DNA of 64,000 bases from Stentor roeselii (Eukaryota; Ciliophora; Heterotrichea; Heterotrichida; Stentoridae). The stretch spans positions 1 through 64,000 of the forward strand of contig RSEH01000075.1 in the NCBI GenBank assembly GCA_006503475.1, given 5' to 3'. The position numbers and the translations under genes are program-made. The notes below the pieces were generated by a model that was not told the DNA's origin, did no database searches, and saw only the letters and a list, made by a program, of their open reading frames with translations. Shown piece by piece: positions 13,472-41,631 of the stretch. Numbering within the stretch: the first letter of the stretch is position 1; the number at the start of each line of letters is the position of its first letter.

Positions 13472-14767
13472 TTACTTTAAAACCTGAGATCTTCTAAGAG
13501 GTCCAAGTTTCGCAGGAGTGGCCCTTCCAGACTTCTTAGAAAAAATATTTACAGAAGGCAACTTTGCCTTAGGAGGACTACTGGGGGTCTGGCTAAGTGC
13601 TCTAACAGAAGCAGAAGGACTTCTTCCAGCGAGTTCCGGGCTATTGGGTGAACTTTGATTAGACTTTTTAGCACTAAGAAGCCTTTCAGCCTGTCCATAG
13701 TCTCCATTAAGAGAAATGAACTGTTCTTCAGGCGACATCTGATACTTATTCGAGTTCTGCAAAACAGTCCTCACAGGACTTCCTTCAAGAGCCCACTTCT
13801 TGCATTCACTTTCCATTTCAATCAAAAACTGCTGCTGCGGGCCTAAAACACTTCCAGGCCTGCAAATGCGGATCCACCCGATGAACTCAGCAGCAGGGAA
13901 GTCAAAGTGCTTCATTACGTAAAGTGCGATTAATGTCCCAGTCCTCCCCAGGCCTGCCTTGCAATGAACCGCCAGAGCTTTTTCTCTTTCTGCGATGTTT
14001 ATGAAATTTTTTATGATTTCTTCGCTCGGCACACTTCCGTCTAAGAAGTAAAGATTGTAATGATTTATTCCGTTTTTGGTGAATCTTTCTGATTCGTAAG
14101 TGGTGTTGTTTAGACGTACCACTGAAGTTACACCGATTCTTTTGAAGAGCTTTGAGTAGTCTTCTGGAGTCCAGACCTTCATACCGTCCGAGTCTGATTC
14201 TGTTGGAGAAGGAGATGCGAAGGCGATGAACTTGCCTGGGACTATCCAGTTCCAGTCACCGTTCTCGACTTTTTCGTAGAATTCGTATTCTTGGAGGTTG
14301 AAACGAGAGTAGCTGAACCAGCCGAATGCCATTGCGCGTTCTAGACCGGCTAGACAATGAAAAATCGTGCATTTGTAGGTGCACCCGCCATATCCCGCAT
14401 CTCGAAAGTCAGCAAAAGGAGCAAGCCCCGCAAATCGTGCCCAAGCTTCCTTCGCCGTTCTTTTGAGAATAATAATTTGAAAAGCTCCCATCAAAAAGGC
14501 GGAATTTGCCCTTTTCTGAGGGTTCAAAGATGTGTAGTGAAAGATTTTAAAAGTAGAACTGGAAGATCTCTTCATCAACTTTTCAAGTTCAGAGCAAAAC
14601 TTGTAAGTCATTCCGAGGTTAAGAGGTCCGAAATCGTTGCAAAAGGGCTGATAGACCAAGTCGTCGTCAATGTTGAAGTAATAAGAATTCTTCTGATTCC
14701 GGGGAGGGGTCTTGTCTGAAATCCAGAAGAGCTTGCTTGGAATTATTTCTACTGCTGAAGCGGCCAT
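13472..14767 (-). CDS. CDC14: CDC14-type dual-specificity phosphatase
   Basis: A 431-residue protein with both halves of CDC14. The N-terminal domain (about 1-160) contains FNIDDDLVYQPFCNDFGPLN and the family segment around YGGCTYKCTIFHCLAGL. The C-terminal PTP domain contains the WPD-like loop region near 240 and the P-loop HCKAGLGRTG at 268-277 (Cys269, Arg275). CDC14 removes phosphate from CDK sites at mitotic exit and acts at centrosomes or basal bodies. The tail after 340 is Ser/Pro-rich with Lys/Arg and may hold localisation signals. The start ATG 14767 is in good context. Confidence 0.95.
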   Translation of the reverse strand: MAASAVEIIPSKLFWISDKTPPRNQKNSYYFNIDDDLVYQPFCNDFGPLNLGMTYKFCSELEKLMKRSSSSTFKIFHYTSLNPQKRANSAFLMGAFQIIILKRTAKEAWARFAGLAPFADFRDAGYGGCTYKCTIFHCLAGLERAMAFGWFSYSRFNLQEYEFYEKVENGDWNWIVPGKFIAFASPSPTESDSDGMKVWTPEDYSKLFKRIGVTSVVRLNNTTYESERFTKNGINHYNLYFLDGSVPSEEIIKNFINIAEREKALAVHCKAGLGRTGTLIALYVMKHFDFPAAEFIGWIRICRPGSVLGPQQQFLIEMESECKKWALEGSPVRTVLQNSNKYQMSPEEQFISLNGDYGQAERLLSAKKSNQSSPNSPELAGRSPSASVRALSQTPSSPPKAKLPSVNIFSKKSGRATPAKLGPLRRSQVLK

Positions 14768-14830: not shown

Positions 14831-16204
14831 TTAATTTCCGTCGGTTGGAATGTCGAGAGTGGAAAATAAAGGGTTTACCATCCCTGGGGTTACTAGAGAG
14901 TGATGGTCGGGGAACCATGATGGGTTTACTTTTGTCTTTTGGATTAGCTTTTGGATCACGGCTAAACTGAAGTTTCCGTTTTCTACTTGCATTAGTTGCA
15001 CGTTTAGGTTGTAGCCTAGCTCTACACATTCTTCGAAAGTCTTGCCTTTGCATCGGTGGAATGCTTTTAGAGTCACGAATAAGGATAAGGGACATTGGCT
15101 GTTAAGCATATTAGCCACATTATTTCTAAAGTTATTTTCAAGCTCACTTAACTTCTCATAAAGTCCTTCAACGCTCGTAATTCTACCAAAAACCTTTTCA
15201 ATTTCATCAGCATTTCTCTGAAGGTCAAAAGGACTTTTAACCCCAGCAAGAAGAGGGTTATAAGCAAATTTATGTAAGACTTGTTCAAAATCTTCAACAT
15301 TTTCACATTCTTTAATAAACTTTTCAACATCCTCATCTCTCACAAAGTGAGTTGCTAGCCTAGTGTGTATCAAGTCAGGCCCATGAATAGAAGATCCAGT
15401 TAAAGCAAGAAAAAGAGCAAGACCTGTAGGCAAAGATGTTAACGCGAAAAGGGTGGAACAGTCAACTGATATTCCATAAGTGTTTTCAGGGAAACAAAGT
15501 ACTGAAGAAGGGGTCGCAACTCGATAGCGACAAGCGAGAGCTAAGGCTGCACCAGTTCCCATGCAAGTTCCTCTCATCACACTTAGACTATTAGATCCTT
15601 TTAGTTTAAGCAGACACTTCGCTTTTTCAGCAGAGTACTTTTTAAGTGACTTGGGATTATTATAAAGCCACAAATAATCATCCCCAACACTAAACTCACT
15701 CCTTTCCCCACACAAAACAAAAGCCTTTTTCCCCTTAAGACACATACTAATACTTTCAACCATTTCCAATGTGAGTGCATTCATATTAGTACTCCGAATC
15801 ATCCTACAAATATTCCCACCTTCAAATATCCACTGACTGATATTTTTTTCAACCGCTTTTTCAATTCGAGTTTTATAAAACCAGTGAAAATACTGCTGCT
15901 GATGCAAATAATTCGTGAAATTCACATCTTTGCAGGACTTTCTAAACTCTTCCGTCTGAAGTAATTTCAAAAAATGCAGAGACTGTGGAAATCTGAATGT
16001 TTTTTACATGATAAACTTGGCATATTCCGGTTTAGTCCAATAAAGAAGATAGTCGAGGTACTTGATGAAGTCAGGATCATCAAAATAATTAAGTTTTGAT
16101 AAGTCTAAGTGTTTTTTACAGTTCAAGTAGTTCATGTTGCAGAGACATTGAATAAATTCCAGTTCTTGTTTGAACCTGTTGTACTCCTGCTGCTCGGCCT
16201 GCAT
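14831..16204 (-). CDS. Fusion: Mediator subunit MED31 + 3-hydroxyisobutyryl-CoA hydrolase-like domain
   Basis: Complement of join(14831..15992, 16008..16204); the intron 15993-16007 reads gtaaaaaacattcag. It encodes 452 residues. Residues about 5-106 are MED31/Soh1: RFKQELEFIQCLCNMNYLNC, then YLDYLLYWTKPEYAKFI, FPQSLHFLKLLQ, EEFRKS and YFHWFY, matching the whole small subunit. The intron lies inside this domain, so splice continuity is well supported. With no stop, residues about 118-452 form an enoyl-CoA hydratase/HIBCH fold: EFSVGDD, the oxyanion loop MGTGAA (210-215), and PENTYGISVD with the HIBCH Glu235 and Asp243 spacing, then LALTGSSIHGPDL and ATHFV. MED31 works in nuclear transcription and HIBCH in mitochondrial valine breakdown, so a natural fusion is surprising. 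Two genes lacking a separating stop in the assembly is the alternative. Confidence 0.82.
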
Positions 16205-16230
16205 TAAATATTAAGAACATTACCTAATAA

Positions 16231-16854
16231 TTAGCACGCGCAGTCACCTTTCGCTGTCACTGGCTCAGCGTGCGATGAAGGAGTTATCTGGATTCGACCG
16301 CTACTCACTGGTTGAGGCTTGTCACCTGGAAGTGTTGTCGCGATTTGCTTGAAAAGCTGCTTCACGTTATCTCCGGTTTTTGCACTTGTCTCGATGTATG
16401 TCGCTTCGAAGGACTTCGCTTTTTTGTCTGCTTCTTCTAGTGATACTGCCCGTTCCTCAGCTTTATCAATTTTATTCCCAACAAGTACAATATTTGCTTC
16501 ATTTCCCCTTTCATTCCTGACATCTTCAACCCACTTATCACAATTCAAGAAAGTTTGTTTGTTAGTGATGTCAAACACAATGACAGCAACAGACGAATCT
16601 CTAATATAATTGGGGATGAGACTTCTGAATCTTTCCTGTCCTGCCGTGTCCCAAAGTTGCAAACGGACAGTCCTGTCATCCAAATAAAGCGTCTTAGACA
16701 AGAAGTCAATCCCGATAGTTGCCTGGTAGTTCGTATCGAAAGATTCGTACATGAACCGATTGATAATCGACGTCTTGCCGACGTAGATGTCTCCTAAAAA
16801 GACCAGCTTGTGTTTTGCCTGGGCACTTATCGGGTTTATAGCTGATTCTACCAT
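16231..16854 (-). CDS. RAB6: Rab6-family small GTPase
   Basis: A 207-residue GTPase. Motifs are the P-loop GDIYVGKT (21-28), the switch I region [36 protein letters not shown] and ETSAK. The run [25 protein letters not shown] is diagnostic for Rab6, which directs Golgi retrograde and exocytic transport. The C-terminus CAC is a double-geranylgeranylation motif. The P-loop has Ile-Tyr where most Rabs have Gln/Ser-Ser, a mild variation. It begins 26 nt beyond the MED31 fusion start, on the same strand. Confidence 0.96.
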
Positions 16855-17689: not shown

Positions 17690-17701
17690 TAATTTTAAAT
17701 C

Positions 17702-20700
17702 ATGTCAAAAGTTAAACCTGACAGTGATGCTGAGGTTTCCAGCTTGAATTCTTCACAGGATGATGAACCTGAACCGACTTCTCATAAGGAAAAATACTCG
17801 GCTGAAACTTTAATGATGATGCTGGATAAACAGAGATTAAGAGCTTTGAAAAAAGAGTTTAAGGAACATCAGGATGGAATTGAACTTCCGAATTTTGTTT
17901 GGCTTATGAAATGTGCCCTAAACGTATCAGATGAAGAAAAAGCAGACCTAGTCCTCGGCCTTTACTACCTCTTCCAAGAAATCGACATAAACGGTGACGA
18001 GCACATGGAATGGTCCGAGTTCACTCAATACATAATCGACGCAGTAATGAGCCAGCAAAACCGTGAAAAACTCGACAACAAAGAGTTAAGTCCATCAGAA
18101 ATCCTGGACATAGCCTATTCTTTAAAGCACATCAGATTCCAAGCCTCATCCACCTGCGACAAAAACCTGCACACCGGTTACATCAGGTACTTAAAATACT
18201 TCAGTTCTCTCGACCTTCTCGCTTTCTTCGAGTCCGGCAGCCGTGTCTTGAAACTCGTCGACCACAACTTAGAACTAAAACAAACCCTTTCCCCAGAACT
18301 TTCTTCAGAAGCCTTCATCGTCGCAGCTGCTTATTCAGAGACTGAAGCGCTTCTTTTGATTGTTTCAAGTGATAAAAAATTTCACAGATTTGAAAAAGAT
18401 AAAGACGGGTTTAGGAAGTTGGATAGAAAAGGAACTGTTTTTCATTCGGCGGTTAAAGCAGTTGATAAACTTTGGTACTTTGAAAGACTTAAACTTTGGC
18501 TTGCTTCTTGTAAGGACTTTAATTTGAGGGCGTATAATATGAGGGATGTTGATGTGGTTATGACTTATAAGGGACATTTGCAGAAGGTTATGGATTGTGT
18601 TGAAATTTGGAGACCTTTTTGCTTTGCTAGCTGCTCTTTGGATCAGTTTGTTGTGCTTTGGAATGTTAGGGATGGATCGAAAATTGGAGTCATTGCTACT
18701 GCACATGGGCAAGGGGTTAGGAGTATGGACTATTGTACTGAATATGGAGGGAATCTTATTACTGTTGGGTTTGAAAGGGAAATCAAAATTTGGAACCCGG
18801 AATCGAATTTACAGAAATGTTTTACTGGGAAATTAGAAGGTCATGCAAAAGCTGTAATATGCTGCAAGTTTTTCCGAGGTAAAGGAATCTGCACAAGTCT
18901 CGACGAAGAAGGAAACATCAGAATCTGGGACGTAAGACAACAGACCTGCCTTCAAATAATTTCAAACGAAAAGCTAAGTATCGACGTCGATAAGCTCGTA
19001 ATTCTAAACAAGCACGAAAAGTTTGTTTTATCAGGTAAAAGATTAATGACCTTTGAATTAATCCACAATGCAGCAAGTCATGAAAAGCTTTATGACATAA
19101 AACCTTTATCTGTAGAATTCAACTCTTATTACATGCAACTCGTTATTTTAACAAGATTTGATATCAGAATTTATGACTGTTTAACTGGAAGACTCAAGAA
19201 AGTCTTTACTAAGTTTAAAGAAATTGAAGAAACTGAATTAAGTGTCATGAGTCTTGATAGGAGAAATCGAGTTGTCATTGTTGGAGATAGTTCTGGGTCT
19301 TTAAGGACTTATAATGTTTTTAATGGATCGCATATCAAGAATATCAGGGATAAAAATGATAAAAGCTTGAAAAATGGAGAAAATTCGGGAACTGATTGTT
19401 TGGATTTTTCGGAAGTTTCTTGCTTTTGTAGCTCTGTTGATGATAATATTTTAGTTACTGGGACTTGGGGATCGAGTTTGATGTTTTTTTTAACGAAAAA
19501 TATCAGTGAAATATCTTTGCTTAGACATGTTCAAGGAGGTCATAATGATTCAGATATAACCTGCATTGCTTACTCTCCGTTTGTTTCTTTTGTAGCTTCC
19601 GGATCAAGTAACGGGGTAGTCTCAATATGGGACTTCGAAAAAGGTAACCTTGAAAGAGCCTTCTTCCTCCATCAACACGAGATAACCCACTTGACATTCC
19701 TAGACCCTTACCCTCTCCTTCTCTCATGTTCACGAGACGGTACAAACAACATCTTAGACCTGACCCGTTCAAAAATCCAAGAAACAGGTTTAAAATTTTT
19801 CCAGTTCCAAACTTTTTCAACCTTCAAAGGAAAAGTGTCTCAATCATTCCTAAGCACAAGTTTAAACTTAATCTCAAAACCCTCAAACCAATCCTCTCAA
19901 GACTCATCATTGATGTGCTTCGGTGACCAAAAAGGAAGTCTTCGTCTTTGGGACTTTTCTTCATTCCTCAAAAAAAATAAAATTTTTGTAGTTGAAAGTC
20001 CTGCTCGAGATCGTGCAGGGTACAACCCTTTTCGCCGTGATAAGAAAAATGCTTCTTCTGACCTGTCCTATTGGAGAAAAAAAGGACCTGCGAGCCTTAA
20101 TCAGTCTTTTCTGGAAGTCGACTCAGAACTGGTTAAAAGTGAATGGCAGGCCCATGAAGATCTAATAAATTCACTTAAACTCATCAACGACCCTCAATGT
20201 TTAGTCTCTTGTTCAGTTGACAGATTTTTAAAGCTTTGGGCAGTTTCTGGAGAATTATGGGGAGTCATCAACTTGGCACTTCCTGAAGTACCAAGAAAAT
20301 GGTTTTTTCCTTTCAAGTGGGAAAAACGCAGAAGGGCTGATATTGAAAAAGTTGTTGAGTTGCTTAGTTTGATTGACAGTGAAATTGACTTTAAACCGAA
20401 TTTGTTGAGTAGTGAAAGAGAAGTTTCTAAAATTGCTGTAAAAAAAGAAAAAAAACCGAAAATTTCAGGTTTTCAAGGATTTTCGTATTCACAACCTGAA
20501 ATTTCAAAATATCAGTATCTTTATGAAAGCTCATTCGATGAAGACCATAAAGAAGAAAAAAAAATTCAGTCTTCTGCTGTTGTTGATGACCAAGTCGCTG
20601 ATTTGAGAAGAAAACTTGAAGAAATTGATAAAAAAAACGGAAAAGAAGTACAAAAAACTCTAAAAGAACCGAAATCGCCTTTTAAACCGAAAAGTTTCAG

Positions 20701-32964: not shown

Positions 32965-35346
32965 CTACAACTTATTCTCCTCTTTACTTGCAAGTAGATA
33001 AGGACTATTGAAATTCACAGAATTTTTCAAATCAGGTATTCTCGGCTGTGCCGCAAAGACCGAGTTCCCAGTATGATAAAACTTATCCCCTCTCAAAGCA
33101 TAAAACTGATTCGGATTATAAGGAAAAATATAAACCCCATCATTATTCTTCCTTTCATCATCATCAGGTACTCCCATGCCATTCATCTGTACAGCTTTCG
33201 AGAACTTGATAGAATTTTCCCAAATCAAGTCATCCATGCTAGTTGCCCTAGTTGTGACTTGTGTCCTCCTATCATAAAATTCAGAGCCTCTAGACCCTTT
33301 AGACCCTCTAGACGCTCTAGAAACATCAGAAATTTGACTATGCCGTGAGTTCTTCTGAGGTCTTTTAACATAAACCCTTGTCCCTCCACTCATTTCCTGA
33401 CTGCTGCGGTCATCACTTAAATCTGAGTAGTTCTGATCATCTTCTTCACTTCCTGAGTCCTGCCCAGGCCTGAGTCTTCTTCGTCCTTGTTTGCTTTGAA
33501 GTTCATCATCCGAGTCCTGTGCGTAAGTCCCGGTGCCTCTTGACTTGTCTCTTGACCTTGAAGATTTTCCTGGGGCTGAAATGTTGATTTCTGGGTATTT
33601 CTCGTCGTTTCGACGAGGGGACCTCCCTGGGCTGGGGACTTCATCGATTTGGTTTAGTTTCACGTTAAGACTTCTTTTTCCTGGAGATTGAGCCCTTTCG
33701 GACTTTTTACTTTTCGAAGACGAGGAAGATACTGAAGAACCTGGACCGCCTTGAGTACTTAGTCTTGAATTTGAAGGGTCTTCAGAAACACTTCCTCCTA
33801 ATGAAAATGAAGAGTCTTTTGAACCTCTTTTACCGGATTTCATGGAAGCTAGGAACTCTTTTTCATCGAATTTTGAAGGTCGTTTTTGAGATGAATTAAC
33901 TGGTTGGTCGTCTGCTGGGGTTCCTTTTCGCTTTTTTCGCTTGGCAAGGGTTTTTTCAAGGCCTTGGATTTTATCTTCTTTGTCTTTAACGGTTTTTTCG
34001 AATTTTTCAACAGTTCCTTTGAATTCTTCGATTGTTTTTTCCTTTTCTACGACAGTTGTTGAAAGAAGCTGCTTGTCTTTGGCCAGGGAGTCTCTTTCCT
34101 TTTTAGCGTGGTCTAGTTCAGTGGAGACTTTTTTTAGTTCGAAGTGGGATTTTTCTATTGAGTGAGAAAGGGCTTCGACTTCTTTTCGAAGTTTTGAAAC
34201 TTCTTCTAAAAGATGATTTTTTTCACCTTCTAGACTTTCTAAGACATTTACTTTTGACCCGAAACTTTCTCTGTACTTTTCAATTGAAATAAATGCTGAG
34301 TTTAATTGAATTTGAAGCTTTTCTATGTGCTTAGATTGCTCTTCGAATGCAGCAGGGGCGATGTACTCGGTGTATGTCTGGGTTTCGTGGTTTGAAGTGT
34401 TTTTCTTGCTTTTTAAAATATCTGAGATTTTTTTTGCGGTGAATCTCTGGACGAAGGAGAATTTTTTCCACATTAGTTCAGGGATTTCAGATGGGTCCAT
34501 ACCGAGAAAATCACTGTTTTTCAGATCAGGAATATCATGATCCTGGTCCATCGCCCTACAGAGTTGCAACAAGAAATCCACAGTATCCTGATTATAACTA
34601 TCCTGATGTTCCTTCAAAATTCTTTTCAATCCAAGAATTTCCAGGTCATTTTTTCCAAAAATCTCTTCAATTTCTTTCTCAATCTTTTCCATTTCAAACT
34701 TTTCACGAGCCTGAGTCTTTTCCAGTTCCTTAGATAATTTTTTATTTAAAGTCTCTGCCACAGTTAAGTCTTTTGACAGTTTTTCCCATTTTTCATTGAA
34801 TTCTTTCACAGTTTTTCGATAAATTTTCGACATTTCACGAGTAATGTTTGAGTAATGCCTGCAAAATTTTATGAGACCTTCTCTTGTTTCACTTTCGATT
34901 TGCTGAAAACTTTGAAGAGGTTGAAGGTTTGAAGGTATTTGAAGAGTTGGAATTGTTTCTTCTAAACACTTTTCGAGCATGTGGAAGTTGCTGCTGAAGA
35001 CTTCAAAGCTGCTGCCTTTTTTTGAGCGTAGCTCGAAACTCTCGATTCTTTCTGAGATGTCGCAGAGGATTGGCTTTGGTGATGAGTACATGTCTTGGCT
35101 TGTTATGGCTGACCTGCAAGTAGAAATATCAGTATTAGGTGACATCGACAAATGATTGGGCTTTAACGTAAAAAACTTATTGCAATTAGTTTTCATCATT
35201 TCATTAGTTCCCGAGTAAACACTAATAGGCTGAAAATGCGCAGAAGTCTCATTCCTAAAATGCGAATTAGCAGAAAGTGGAGGAAAGTTGCTTTTAGGTG
35301 AAATAGAAAATCTACGACCAGTCGTGAATTTAATTTCTTTTTTCAT
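32965..35346 (-). CDS. Long coiled-coil protein with Ser/Arg-rich tail
   Basis: A 793-residue protein. The N-terminal 150 residues are Ser-rich. Residues about 150-470 are predominantly coiled coil (heptads such as EEVSKLRKEVEALSHSIEK and KDKEDKIQGLEKTLAKRKKR). From 480 to 720 the protein is a low-complexity Ser/Arg/Lys/Asp region with many RS- and SP-type sites (SKSRGTGTY, RSQEMSGG), probably phosphorylated. The C-terminal 80 residues are ordered-looking (YIFPYNPNQFYALRGDKFYHTG). A structural or cytoskeletal role is plausible; no orthologue is recognised. It lies 12 nt from the ACB-domain gene upstream. Confidence 0.75.
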   Translation of the reverse strand: MKKEIKFTTGRRFSISPKSNFPPLSANSHFRNETSAHFQPISVYSGTNEMMKTNCNKFFTLKPNHLSMSPNTDISTCRSAITSQDMYSSPKPILCDISERIESFELRSKKGSSFEVFSSNFHMLEKCLEETIPTLQIPSNLQPLQSFQQIESETREGLIKFCRHYSNITREMSKIYRKTVKEFNEKWEKLSKDLTVAETLNKKLSKELEKTQAREKFEMEKIEKEIEEIFGKNDLEILGLKRILKEHQDSYNQDTVDFLLQLCRAMDQDHDIPDLKNSDFLGMDPSEIPELMWKKFSFVQRFTAKKISDILKSKKNTSNHETQTYTEYIAPAAFEEQSKHIEKLQIQLNSAFISIEKYRESFGSKVNVLESLEGEKNHLLEEVSKLRKEVEALSHSIEKSHFELKKVSTELDHAKKERDSLAKDKQLLSTTVVEKEKTIEEFKGTVEKFEKTVKDKEDKIQGLEKTLAKRKKRKGTPADDQPVNSSQKRPSKFDEKEFLASMKSGKRGSKDSSFSLGGSVSEDPSNSRLSTQGGPGSSVSSSSSKSKKSERAQSPGKRSLNVKLNQIDEVPSPGRSPRRNDEKYPEINISAPGKSSRSRDKSRGTGTYAQDSDDELQSKQGRRRLRPGQDSGSEEDDQNYSDLSDDRSSQEMSGGTRVYVKRPQKNSRHSQISDVSRASRGSKGSRGSEFYDRRTQVTTRATSMDDLIWENSIKFSKAVQMNGMGVPDDDERKNNDGVYIFPYNPNQFYALRGDKFYHTGNSVFAAQPRIPDLKNSVNFNSPYLLASKEENKL

Positions 35347-35358
35347 TATAAACAGTTA

Positions 35359-36357
35359 TTAATAAAGTTTATCAAGCTCATCATATTCCATTTCAATTCT
35401 TTGAAGGACCTGTTGAATCCTTCCCAGTTTAGTCTGAACATGCATGACAGTGCTAGTGGCCGTCATTTCCTCAACCTTATTCTTATTATTCATCTTAACG
35501 ATTTCCCTTTCAATAATTTCTTTACCAAACTGATTCAGTTCCTTTTGAAAGTTCTTCTTTTTTTCAGAATACTCCACCATATCAAAGTCGACTCTTTCAA
35601 AACCTTTCGGCATTTTCGTGGCACTTGTTCTTCTCAAGTTCCCTCCTCGATAGCTCTGAAGGTCTTCAACAAACCCTTTTAAAAACTCAGAATCCTGCTC
35701 CTGATACTGCTGAATAGATATATTAACTCTAGGAAACCTGCAACTTTCTTCAACTTTTTTAAATTTCTTCACATTCATGATTAAAGATCTTGAATCATTA
35801 CTTTCATTTCTTGATTTCGTGCGAAAATTTCGACTTTTTCTCATTTTTTGTATTTTTTGAAAGACATCTGGAGTCATTCCCCGTGATTCATTTTTCAACA
35901 TTCCTTTATTCCCAGGAGAAATTTCATTTATTCTTTGATTCCTCTGCAAAAATTTCTCTTTTTTCAAATCTTTTCCAATTCCCTGATTTTTTTTCTTGAT
36001 TTGTTGATCAGGCATATTGATCCATTCAATTTCGAACTCATAAAACAATTTACGAAATCGAGTCCAATTCGGAAAAAGGTTATTGATAAGGTCAATAAAC
36101 TTCCTCATAGCAGTTTCTGCTGATATCTGTCCAAGTTTCTGCCATTCCGCGACTCTTTTTTTCCTTTCAGCAGTGGTGCAGCTGTCCAGATCAGCGACTT
36201 GAATCTTTTCGTTATAAGGTCCGTGAGAGACATGAAGATGCAGGGCTCCGAGTTGCGCCCTCTGAGCTTCTGAGATAGAAATAGGCCTTTCTTCAGATAA
36301 GTAGTAATGAGCCGCCAGGTACTGCTTTGCGATGTCCCAGTTATGCACTTCACTCAT
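35359..36357 (-). CDS. Acyl-CoA-binding-domain protein with charged C-terminal extension
   Basis: A 332-residue protein. Residues about 5-105 fit the four-helix ACBP fold: WDIAKQYLAAHYYL, LGALHLHVSHGPYN, then RVAEWQKLGQISAETAMRKFIDLI with the conserved Trp and AMR/Phe of ACBPs. ACBPs carry long-chain acyl-CoA esters. The tyrosines that grip the acyl-CoA are only partly conserved, so ligand binding is uncertain. The remaining 220 residues are Lys/Glu/Asn-rich and probably helical. The start codon (36355-36357) lies at the edge of a 51-bp tandem duplication. Confidence 0.7.
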   Translation of the reverse strand: MSEVHNWDIAKQYLAAHYYLSEERPISISEAQRAQLGALHLHVSHGPYNEKIQVADLDSCTTAERKKRVAEWQKLGQISAETAMRKFIDLINNLFPNWTRFRKLFYEFEIEWINMPDQQIKKKNQGIGKDLKKEKFLQRNQRINEISPGNKGMLKNESRGMTPDVFQKIQKMRKSRNFRTKSRNESNDSRSLIMNVKKFKKVEESCRFPRVNISIQQYQEQDSEFLKGFVEDLQSYRGGNLRRTSATKMPKGFERVDFDMVEYSEKKKNFQKELNQFGKEIIEREIVKMNNKNKVEEMTATSTVMHVQTKLGRIQQVLQRIEMEYDELDKLY

Positions 36358-38430: not shown

Positions 38431-41400
38431 ATGCATAAAATAGCCTGTGAAAAATGCGGAGTCGGTTTATTCACAGATATTAAATTAAAGGAATGGGTCT
38501 GCAGTCCTTGTCAACAAGGCCTATCTCCAACATCCTTAACCTGCAAAGTCTGTTCTCTTTCCAACGGAGTTTTAATCTCCACGACCTCTAGCGAATGGTT
38601 GCATCTTTTCTGCGCACTTTTACTAAAACAATACATAAAATCATCTTCATCAGAAGACATCTCAAATTGTTTAAACTCAGTGATTTCCTTAGAAATTCCT
38701 GAAGACTTAACAGATCAGATCTGTGCAGTTTGCGGGAAAGACAAAGGTCTTCCAGTGATTCTTTGTCAGACCTGCAGTCAAAACGTGCACATTTCTTGCA
38801 TAATCCAAAAGAACTGGAAAATAATCGGCGAAAGTCTTGACTGCGGGTGTTGCGAGAAGAAAAAATCATTAAAAAGGTCGAAAACTTCAGAACTCCCGCC
38901 AATCCGAGGTCCTCAGTCATGCCTGATCCTGGAGCACATCATGGAAAAAATCGTGAAATGCGACCATTTGATGATATTTCGAGAAAAAACTGATACTTCT
39001 AATAAAGACCTTCTTTTAGAAGGTCTAAGTTCGAAGACTTATATTGACGTGACTGAAGATTCTCTTTTTCTTGTCATTTCAAAGACCTTTCAAGGCTCAC
39101 CGACGAAAAAACAGAAACTTTCAACACCTGCTGGAATTTTAGACTTTGATGAAATTTCTGACATTGTGACTGAAGATGAACCGAGATATGTCCAGGACTA
39201 TGAAGAGTACGAAAAGGAAAAACTTGTAAATTTTGATCATATGTATAAATACTTCATTAGAGGACATGCGTATTTCACCATGTCACAAGTTATTCAAGAC
39301 TTTCGACATATCGTCATGAAAAACCTGGCAAAAGCGAAAACGACTCAAGAAAAAATTTACATTAACCGAGTCTGGGAACTAGGAATGAATCATTTGATGT
39401 CATCAAAAAAATCCTTTGAAGAAGCAGTTTTAGATGACTGGAAAACTGCTCTGGAGACTAACAGACAGGCACCTCGGGTGACTTCTTCTTGGCACAAGGA
39501 AGCTTTTGAATCACGTAACTACGAAATGATCTCAGACTACAAAGAAGTCTCAAAAGGCACTAAAAGTCGTCTGGAAACACGAAAAAAGGGAAAATGCGAA
39601 GGAAACTCTTGCTCAGAACTTCAAGACCTCGGCCCTTTCAACCTCATCAACTGCACCTGGGAATCAACCAACCCTGACAGAGTCTCTCGAGTTGAATGCT
39701 CAGAAAAGTGCCTTTGTGACCAGGTCCAATGTAAAAATCGCCAAATCAGTTTAAAGCAATTTCAAAAGCTTGATGAAGACGTAAGAGAAATCGCTACCTG
39801 GGGCTTTGACGTCTACACTTATAGAAATTTAATGGCTTATATGCGACATCCAGTTAGCAACAAGATGCACAAGTTCATTTCTCGTGCATTGCCTAAAGCG
39901 ATTAATTCAGTGAAAAGAGATAATTGGAATATTTTAAGAGCTTTTGAGTATATTTTAGAAGACTTTCATGGGATTTTCAAATTAAGGGATAAAAGATATG
40001 CTGCTGGGTTAAAAAATGCAATTGAAGGACTTGCTGAGTTGATTGGTATTGATCAAGTGTTGAATGAGTTTCAGATTCATCCGAAGGGAACTGGAGTGAT
40101 TTGTGCGAATCCTCGAGGAATTCCTAGAAATTCTTTGATTGTTGAGTACTTCGGGCAATTGTTTTCCCCGGCGAAGTGGTATGAGAAACAGGATCTTATC
40201 AAGGGAATCACGAATCAGTTGAAGAAAAAAGAAGGGGCTAGTGATGTTTTACCTGATTTTTATAATATTATGCTTGAAAGACACCATGATGACCCTGATG
40301 GATATGATATTTTAATTGTTGATCCTATTTTTTATGGAAGTTATGGAAGTAGATTGAGTCATTCTTGTACTCCTAATTGTGGAACTGTCACTATGGTCGC
40401 TCAGGGAAAGTATTCTATTGGTATGTACGCTTTGAGTGATATTAAGTATTTGGATGAACTCACTTTTGATTATAACTCGATCACTGAAAGTAAGGAAGAA
40501 CATTTGAATGCTGTTTGTCTTTGTGCTTCGTCGCTTTGTAGGAGTTTTTATTTGGCACATGCTCAAAACTCTAGCAATATTCCGAATTTTCATAACTTCT
40601 TGCATAGGGCGAGTCTTATGGTCAAAGCTTCCATCATGCAATTCGGTTCAAAAGAGTCCGAAATCTGCGAAAAGTACTTCATCCGAAATGCAGTCCTAGA
40701 GAACTCTCCAGAGTGGTTAAAGGTCTGGATAGCCCTAGTTCTAGAAGTAGTAGACAAAGAGGCAAAAAGTATCCAACAAGAGATCTACAAAAAGCTAGCA
40801 ATAGACTCAAGACTTCAAAACCTAGTAATGACAGTAGACAAAATAAAATACTGCATGCAAAGAACAAACATCCACCCACCCTACCGTCTTCTAACCCCTG
40901 AAGAAACCCTAGACTACCTCTGGGGCAGTGGAGAGACCTCAATCCGAAAGCAGCTAAAAAAGCTTTTCCAAGACCAAAGCCTGGACTTTTCAAGTCTCGA
41001 CAAAGACCTACCCTCAGTGATCGAAGCAAAAAAATCTCTATTAAAAGCTCGAGACCTTCTTCGAAAGTCACTTCCAAACATGTGGAGAGGTCAAGGAATT
41101 GCTGACATTTTACACCTAATCGCTTTCACAAGAGTCTACTTCTCAGAAATCCCTTATTCTTCATTCGAGTCAGACCCAGTGTCAATCCGCCACTGCGAGG
41201 TAAGCAAAGCGTCATCAAACCACACAATCTTCAAAAGTCTAAAAAAAAAATACTCAGCTTTTCACATTCAAGGGACTTTATCAGGTTGGTACAAACAAAC
41301 CGTTGAAAAACCCGCTTCTTCATTAAGTGCTGATAAAAGAGGTACTCTTTCAGTCTCGTCTTTAGAAAATCCTCCAGATCTTGAATATTCAGCAAAAACT

Positions 41401-41631
41401 CGCAGTCTTCTTTTAGAACATTTAAAAGAAAAACCTGCATCGGCCTGGCCAGCGAAGGCAAATTGTAAGTACCCTTGGGGAAACTTCACGAATAAGGCGA
41501 AAGTTCTTGGGACTCCCATGTTTGACGCGTGTTTTTTTGATGACCCTGAGATGATGTTGGCTGTTTTAGCTTGTATTGATAGAACTGCTGAGAAGTCTGA
41601 AGTTGTGGAGAGTTTTCATGGGTTTAATTGA
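38431..41631 (+). CDS. PHD-finger SET-domain histone methyltransferase (ATXR3/SDG2-like)
   Basis: A 1066-residue protein. An N-terminal zinc-binding block (6-66: CEKCG, CSPC, CKVC, HLFC) and a PHD finger (about 98-125: CAVCGKDKGLPVILCQTC, HISC) form an extended PHD module. A Cys-rich pre-SET-like stretch (CSEKCLCDQVQCKN) lies near 430. The SET domain covers about 552-690: GTGVICANPRGIPRNSLIVEYFGQ, SRLSHSCTPNC and DELTFDYNSITESKEEH. Post-SET CLCASSLCRS follows. FDYNSxTESKEE with CLC is characteristic of plant ATXR3/SDG2 H3K4 methyltransferases. All SAM and Tyr motifs are present, so it is probably active. The stop TGA is 15 nt before the frataxin ATG. Confidence 0.92.
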   Translation: MHKIACEKCGVGLFTDIKLKEWVCSPCQQGLSPTSLTCKVCSLSNGVLISTTSSEWLHLFCALLLKQYIKSSSSEDISNCLNSVISLEIPEDLTDQICAVCGKDKGLPVILCQTCSQNVHISCIIQKNWKIIGESLDCGCCEKKKSLKRSKTSELPPIRGPQSCLILEHIMEKIVKCDHLMIFREKTDTSNKDLLLEGLSSKTYIDVTEDSLFLVISKTFQGSPTKKQKLSTPAGILDFDEISDIVTEDEPRYVQDYEEYEKEKLVNFDHMYKYFIRGHAYFTMSQVIQDFRHIVMKNLAKAKTTQEKIYINRVWELGMNHLMSSKKSFEEAVLDDWKTALETNRQAPRVTSSWHKEAFESRNYEMISDYKEVSKGTKSRLETRKKGKCEGNSCSELQDLGPFNLINCTWESTNPDRVSRVECSEKCLCDQVQCKNRQISLKQFQKLDEDVREIATWGFDVYTYRNLMAYMRHPVSNKMHKFISRALPKAINSVKRDNWNILRAFEYILEDFHGIFKLRDKRYAAGLKNAIEGLAELIGIDQVLNEFQIHPKGTGVICANPRGIPRNSLIVEYFGQLFSPAKWYEKQDLIKGITNQLKKKEGASDVLPDFYNIMLERHHDDPDGYDILIVDPIFYGSYGSRLSHSCTPNCGTVTMVAQGKYSIGMYALSDIKYLDELTFDYNSITESKEEHLNAVCLCASSLCRSFYLAHAQNSSNIPNFHNFLHRASLMVKASIMQFGSKESEICEKYFIRNAVLENSPEWLKVWIALVLEVVDKEAKSIQQEIYKKLAIDSRLQNLVMTVDKIKYCMQRTNIHPPYRLLTPEETLDYLWGSGETSIRKQLKKLFQDQSLDFSSLDKDLPSVIEAKKSLLKARDLLRKSLPNMWRGQGIADILHLIAFTRVYFSEIPYSSFESDPVSIRHCEVSKASSNHTIFKSLKKKYSAFHIQGTLSGWYKQTVEKPASSLSADKRGTLSVSSLENPPDLEYSAKTRSLLLEHLKEKPASAWPAKANCKYPWGNFTNKAKVLGTPMFDACFFDDPEMMLAVLACIDRTAEKSEVVESFHGFN

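Follow-up and report, generated by a model that had tools for sequence, protein, structure and literature searches.

Analysis of a 64,000-nucleotide stretch of DNA (bases 1-64000 of contig C494, hereafter the window), in a genome of 44.39 Mb assembled in 522 contigs, indicated that a single gene on the minus strand at 16204-14831 joins the Mediator subunit MED31 to a divergent relative of HIBCH. Once two 15-nt introns are removed, the gene encodes a 447-aa chain, and the likely explanation of its sequence is that MED31 and a divergent HIBCH-like gene, formerly tandem neighbours in a compact ciliate genome, have truly become fused in frame. The Med31 and ECH_2 profile matches cannot be due to chance at the E-values obtained. 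An in-frame fusion had been proposed by a sequence-only reading of the window, and it is supported here by the one MED31 locus above the cut-off and, at the junction, by the lack of a stop, of a plausible intron and of a start-like ATG.

The gene was modelled as three minus-strand exons. Exon 1 (16120..16204) starts at the MED31 ATG at 16204 and is followed by intron 1 (16105..16119, GTAAAAAACACTTAG), exon 2 (16008..16104, MED31), intron 2 (15993..16007, GTAAAAAACATTCAG) and exon 3 (14831..15992), a single open frame carrying the end of MED31, the linker, the HIBCH-like domain and the stop TAA. The sequence-only reading had given the same gene coordinates and a 15-nt intron inside MED31 at 16007-15993; both stood, and retention of this intron leads to a stop within MED31. 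Its count of a single intron did not stand, as a second one of the same form lies at 16119-16105; this intron is stop-free and keeps the frame, and is thus easily missed. Unspliced, it forms an insert in MED31 relative to the MED31 chains of the PDB, which we take to be mammalian. It is in frame, and the Med31 profile of Pfam scored 111.4 bits with it removed compared with 101.9 bits with it retained; the protein therefore comprises 447 aa. Gene reading that relies on stops cannot detect 15-nt introns that are stop-free and in frame, and further ones may be present elsewhere among the genes of this genome.

Splicing rules were derived from 264 kb, comprising the window and 20 hand-picked 10-kb stretches taken mostly from contigs already met. 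A GT-AG segment of 11-23 nt was counted as an intron candidate if a long frame was restored on deleting it. All 16 frame-restoring introns of 15 nt started with GTAA and had an A at position 10, whereas none of the 13 candidates of 16 nt started with GTAA, and their number was as at other lengths (13, 17, and 14 at 13, 19, and 22 nt, respectively). The PWM trained on the 16 introns, which included neither MED31 intron, gave scores of 11.57 for intron 1 and 11.26 for intron 2, within the range of the independently found training set (9.2-17.7). In the window, GTAA..AG segments numbered 48 at 15 nt, compared with 15 and 13 at lengths of 14 and 16 nt, respectively, while GTG..AG segments were not enriched at 16 nt (69; range 50-94 across lengths 11-23). 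TGA terminated 3 of 34 frames of at least 200 codons, and the standard code was therefore used for reading. UGA as an amino acid was rejected on this count; 17 of the 25 longest TGA-readthrough frames contained no TGA. The standard code and the 15-nt introns with A at position 10 match Stentor-like heterotrichs, as an excerpt on S. coeruleus describes the standard code and introns of 15 or 16 nt with the branch A mostly at position 10 or 11 (PMC9505925).

The MED31 domain (Pfam PF05669; 15875..16180, minus strand) covered profile positions 2-93 of 95 with an E-value of 2.1e-32 and 111.4 bits against a cut-off of 25, in agreement with the earlier claim that a whole MED31 is encoded. It was the only locus in the 44-Mb genome to pass the Med31 cut-off in a six-frame Pfam profile search, which is blind across introns, so that a heavily interrupted second MED31 could escape it. 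Four weaker matches (L003-L006) had a best E-value of 0.03; L003 and L006 were low-complexity sequence and L005 lay within a long, unrelated-looking frame. No relatives of the fusion or of MED31 were found in viral contigs, one of the queries being approximate. According to excerpts of a recent perspective (PMC12716044), MED31 is the only Mediator subunit that its authors could identify in Paramecium, and the Tetrahymena Mediator is described as MED31 plus ciliate-specific parts; the same excerpts cite a motif-based study predicting more Mediator subunits. Tetrahymena Med31 is located in the macronucleus, as stated in part of another paper (PMC6562869). The gene resembles the MED31 of these ciliates in its full MED31 domain and differs by the C-terminal crotonase domain, other ciliate MED31 being known here by description only.

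The HIBCH/crotonase-like domain (Pfam PF16113, ECH_2; residues 125-437, 14864..15802, minus strand) matched profile positions 6-335 of 335 with an E-value of 9.9e-48 and 163.8 bits against a cut-off of 27.2. At an E-value of 0.1, no Pfam families other than Med31, ECH_2, and ECH_1 were found in the fusion protein, and hence no chromodomain. Glu230 (15485..15487) and Asp238 (15461..15463) aligned with the conserved PE and PD of HIBCH, positions that we take to be its catalytic pair, as the sequence-only reading had noted. Its description of the HIBCH-like domain as complete was too strong, since homology begins only at residue 125 and linker residues 101-124 are shuffle-like. The motifs CAGGD and GGG, to which we attribute a CoA/oxyanion role with Gly165 of CAGGD presumably in the oxyanion region, are changed to SVGDD (G165D) and GTG, respectively, and FPD is changed to SVD. 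The domain reached 121.8 bits with the NCBIfam HIBCH model, below its 274-bit cut-off. It kept 24 of 50 near-invariant positions, defined as at least 90% conserved among 21 bacterial ECH_2 proteins. These proteins were the ones carrying the PE..IG..PD motif among 24 loci (24/60 genomes), the other three being dropped, and the columns of this motif are thus conserved by construction.

The genome contains 16 ECH_2 matches, of which five are near full length: the fusion, L007, L008, L009, and L010, the last with one internal TAA that is apparently an intron. L007 is a canonical HIBCH that matched PDB 3bpt, which we take to be human HIBCH, at 1e-73 and passed the NCBIfam HIBCH cut-off with 319.5 bits; from its first Met it starts with MISRRLLRFYSE, a presequence-like start. 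Near-invariant positions were kept at 44/51 in L007, 38/51 in L008, 29/51 in L009, and 30/51 in L010, which carries Asn at the position of the conserved Asp. In a tree of 26 rows, the fusion half grouped with L009 and L010 (98/98) and with L009 alone at 88/48, on a branch of 3.44 compared with 0.57 for L009; such a long-branch placement is unsure, and the letter make-up of the fusion is unlike that of the other rows. A search of genome contigs beyond this genome yielded one bacterial ECH_2 locus only. The N-termini of L009, L010, and L014 share a leader, M[DE]RL....[SN]H[IL]S, before the crotonase-family domain. Four enoyl-CoA hydratase-like loci on contigs C228 and C137 (L016, L017, L018, and L019), three of them clustered on C228, all end in -PKL, which presumably resembles a peroxisomal tail signal.

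No mitochondrial presequence was seen by eye in the fusion, the N-terminus of which is occupied by MED31 and the first 30 residues of which have a net charge of -2. The earlier label of a mitochondrial metabolic enzyme does not hold for the fused copy, given the lack of a presequence, the missed NCBIfam HIBCH cut-off and the separate canonical HIBCH (L007), and the fused crotonase module is probably extramitochondrial. It is unlikely, in our view, that the fusion is made with its HIBCH-like half as a tolerated, decaying passenger without function. Such decay would fit the retention of 24/50 near-invariant positions against 44/51 in the canonical paralogue, the branch of 3.44 and the changes GGD to GDD and GGG to GTG, but this half runs over 323 codons without a stop or frameshift despite its divergence, and both acids are kept, though L010 has Asn for Asp. 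Since an unconstrained frame at such divergence should gather stops, selection probably still acts on the fused half, though not in the role of HIBCH.

The frame runs uninterrupted via YFHWFY and EKAVEKNISQW into the ECH_2 domain, exactly as the sequence-only reading had it, and residues 25-124 contain no Met. The Pfam MED31 match ends at residue 100 and the ECH_2 match begins at residue 125, exactly at an ATG (Met125, 15800..15802; ATG 15802). This coincidence counts against a single fusion gene and favours two separate tandem genes, with HIBCH starting at ATG 15802 and the apparent fusion caused by faulty sequencing or assembly (a stop that was overlooked, or bases gained or lost in a run of seven A). 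We consider this explanation clearly unlikely. Start contexts were scored with a model built from 72 confident starts, ORF-based rather than mapped experimentally, and 876 internal ATGs. ATG 15802 scored -8.58, the worst context among all starts compared (below 72/72), and 87% of the internal ATGs scored at least as high; by contrast, the MED31 ATG at 16204 scored 5.72, a value reached by 1% of internal ATGs. The next ATG, at 15784, scored -3.78, and 6% of starts were as low. Among 15 starts no more than 60 nt from an upstream tandem ORF, scores ranged from -5.86 to 7.87 and none was as low as that of ATG 15802; the lowest of them comes after an intron and is probably no start. A separate HIBCH start at ATG 15802 was rejected on these scores. 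It is the only candidate start that leaves the recognisable HIBCH domain whole, and a protein from it would miss 16-28 residues that are present before the same point in four paralogues of this genome.

The linker between the two domains (residues 101-124; 15803..15874, minus strand) bears on the same question. It showed no detectable HIBCH signal, scoring -4.15 against a HIBCH N-terminal profile built from the four own paralogues and 12 of the 21 bacterial proteins (16 rows), with 974/2000 shuffles and 1299/3000 protein segments of the window scoring at least as high; the test is weak, as the own paralogues, when left out, scored only 2.6, 5.8, 7.5, and -0.4. HIBCH N-terminal strands in another frame of the linker, which would favour two genes, were rejected: one shifted frame scored 2.4 versus -4.1, but 205/3000 shuffles reached this value, which was the best of three frames and not significant. 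Codon usage in the linker was mildly coding-like (density ratio 1.4-1.9); its score was not exceeded by 67% of coding windows and was reached or exceeded by 15% of windows without a stop that lie outside long ORFs. By itself, an open linker of 20 codons says little for a fusion, because 30% (8292/27668) of the 20-codon windows sampled outside long ORFs likewise lack a stop. Of the 216 single substitutions in the linker, 11 would give rise to a stop, and positions 15849-15843 form an A7 run, so that an apparent fusion could also result from a miscalled base or homopolymer length; against such an error, long frames (836-1121 codons) in other parts of the window show no interruption, although these were chosen for being open. 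Single-sequence AlphaFold2 gave an unusable model (mean pLDDT 32), and the two short strands that it drew at QWIFE and NICRM, presumably near the place of the first strands of crotonase, are a hint at most.

Tight tandem spacing is common in the sampled sequence and would suit two separate genes as well. The MED31 gene follows a Ras/Rab-family GTPase gene (16231..16854, minus strand) at a gap of 26 nt and precedes, at a gap of 63 nt, a dual-specificity phosphatase gene with DSPn and DSPc domains (13472..14767, minus strand), which we take to be Cdc14-like. Gaps of no more than 30 nt separated 10 of 58 tandem pairs of ORFs of at least 150 aa, with some of the tiniest gaps, including at least one gap-0 case, being intron artefacts; several were 11-14 nt, and tight spots included 16204-16231, 17690-17702, and 35346-35359. 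No other joining of two unrelated-seeming families was found with Pfam among 27 window frames of at least 220 aa and two neighbours, several of the window frames being without any Pfam match. A 1066-aa frame at 38431-41631 of the window carries PHD-like, SET, and SDG2_C domains, the last presumably of the plant ATXR3 type.

The fused half might instead be an active acyl-CoA hydrolase/hydratase at Mediator that changes local acyl-CoA and thus histone acylation, in the way that CDYL acts on crotonyl-CoA. We take the crotonase domain of CDY/CDYL to be of the ECH_1 type, as opposed to ECH_2 in the fusion. In excerpts of one paper, CDYL is a protein with a chromodomain and a hydratase-like domain (PMC8055951), which resembles the fusion in placing a chromatin/transcription domain before a crotonase fold in one chain and offers a precedent; it differs in being an animal protein with a chromodomain in place of MED31. 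Part of a second paper describes a transcription factor of the fungus Penicillium with two binding partners, Med31 and an ECH_1 protein that carries the annotation of a putative HIBCH (PMC10570388). Glu230 and Asp238 are retained, but with Gly165 of CAGGD replaced by Asp, GGG by GTG and the NCBIfam HIBCH cut-off missed, the chance of an active enzyme appears slim.

The earlier suggestion that alternative splicing of a 16-nt intron, GTGGGAATATTTGTAG at 15819-15804 on the minus strand, gives either a 119-aa MED31 without the second domain, with IFEG as its last residues, or the fusion is scarcely credible: the candidate has a GT start and an AG end, its removal brings an immediate stop and S. 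coeruleus possesses 16-nt introns according to an excerpt (PMC9505925), but it lacks GTAA and was rejected as breaking the intron rules of this genome, because 16-nt candidates were 0/13 for GTAA and no more numerous than at other lengths. No 15-nt GT-AG segment was found between 15740 and 15890.

Among known systems, the fusion resembles HIBCH in passing the Pfam ECH_2 cut-off and in keeping the Glu/Asp positions, and differs in the attached MED31, the missed NCBIfam cut-off, the altered CAGGD and GGG motifs and the lack of a presequence. The best solved match to the fusion domain was 6xyw_BE (4.7e-20). As in mS47 (6xyw, 9evs, 5mrc), a HIBCH relative would have been recruited into a large complex, although mS47 is a mitochondrial protein without a fused transcription partner. 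A gene of this genome, L012 (C502:87843-89051), looks closer to ciliate mS47 by its length and split ECH_2 match only; it is a 1278-aa frame, possibly the mS47 of this ciliate, compared with 1451 aa in 6z1p_BI, presumably from Tetrahymena. A MED31-HIBCH fusion was not found in the titles and abstract starts of the papers listed from the open-access literature, an absence of little weight.

We thus favour a genuine fusion, to which the tight tandem spacing would offer a route: loss of the stop of the sole recognisable MED31, beside a tandem HIBCH-like duplicate, would have created the fusion in one step, and MED31 would then read via a 24-residue linker into a fast-evolving ECH_2 crotonase duplicate. 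The product, presumably translated as a single chain, would follow MED31 to the macronucleus and to Mediator, because its N-terminus is MED31 without a mitochondrial presequence. The crotonase half would most likely act as a tethered module that offers a CoA pocket or binds proteins, for which CDYL, the HIBCH-like mS47 and the fungal factor are precedents; a valine-pathway hydrolase role is unlikely for it, and the separate canonical gene would cover that pathway. It is a rather improbable further step that the most conserved subunit of Mediator here covalently bears a domain handling or sensing CoA esters, through which acyl-CoA from branched- or short-chain catabolism would act directly on RNA polymerase II transcription. 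The fusion itself would tie metabolism to gene control in an unusual way, as a natural example of part of the transcription machinery coupled to a metabolic fold, like CDYL but on Mediator, and a permanent MED31-crotonase fusion would provide a handle on the other contents of the divergent ciliate Mediator.
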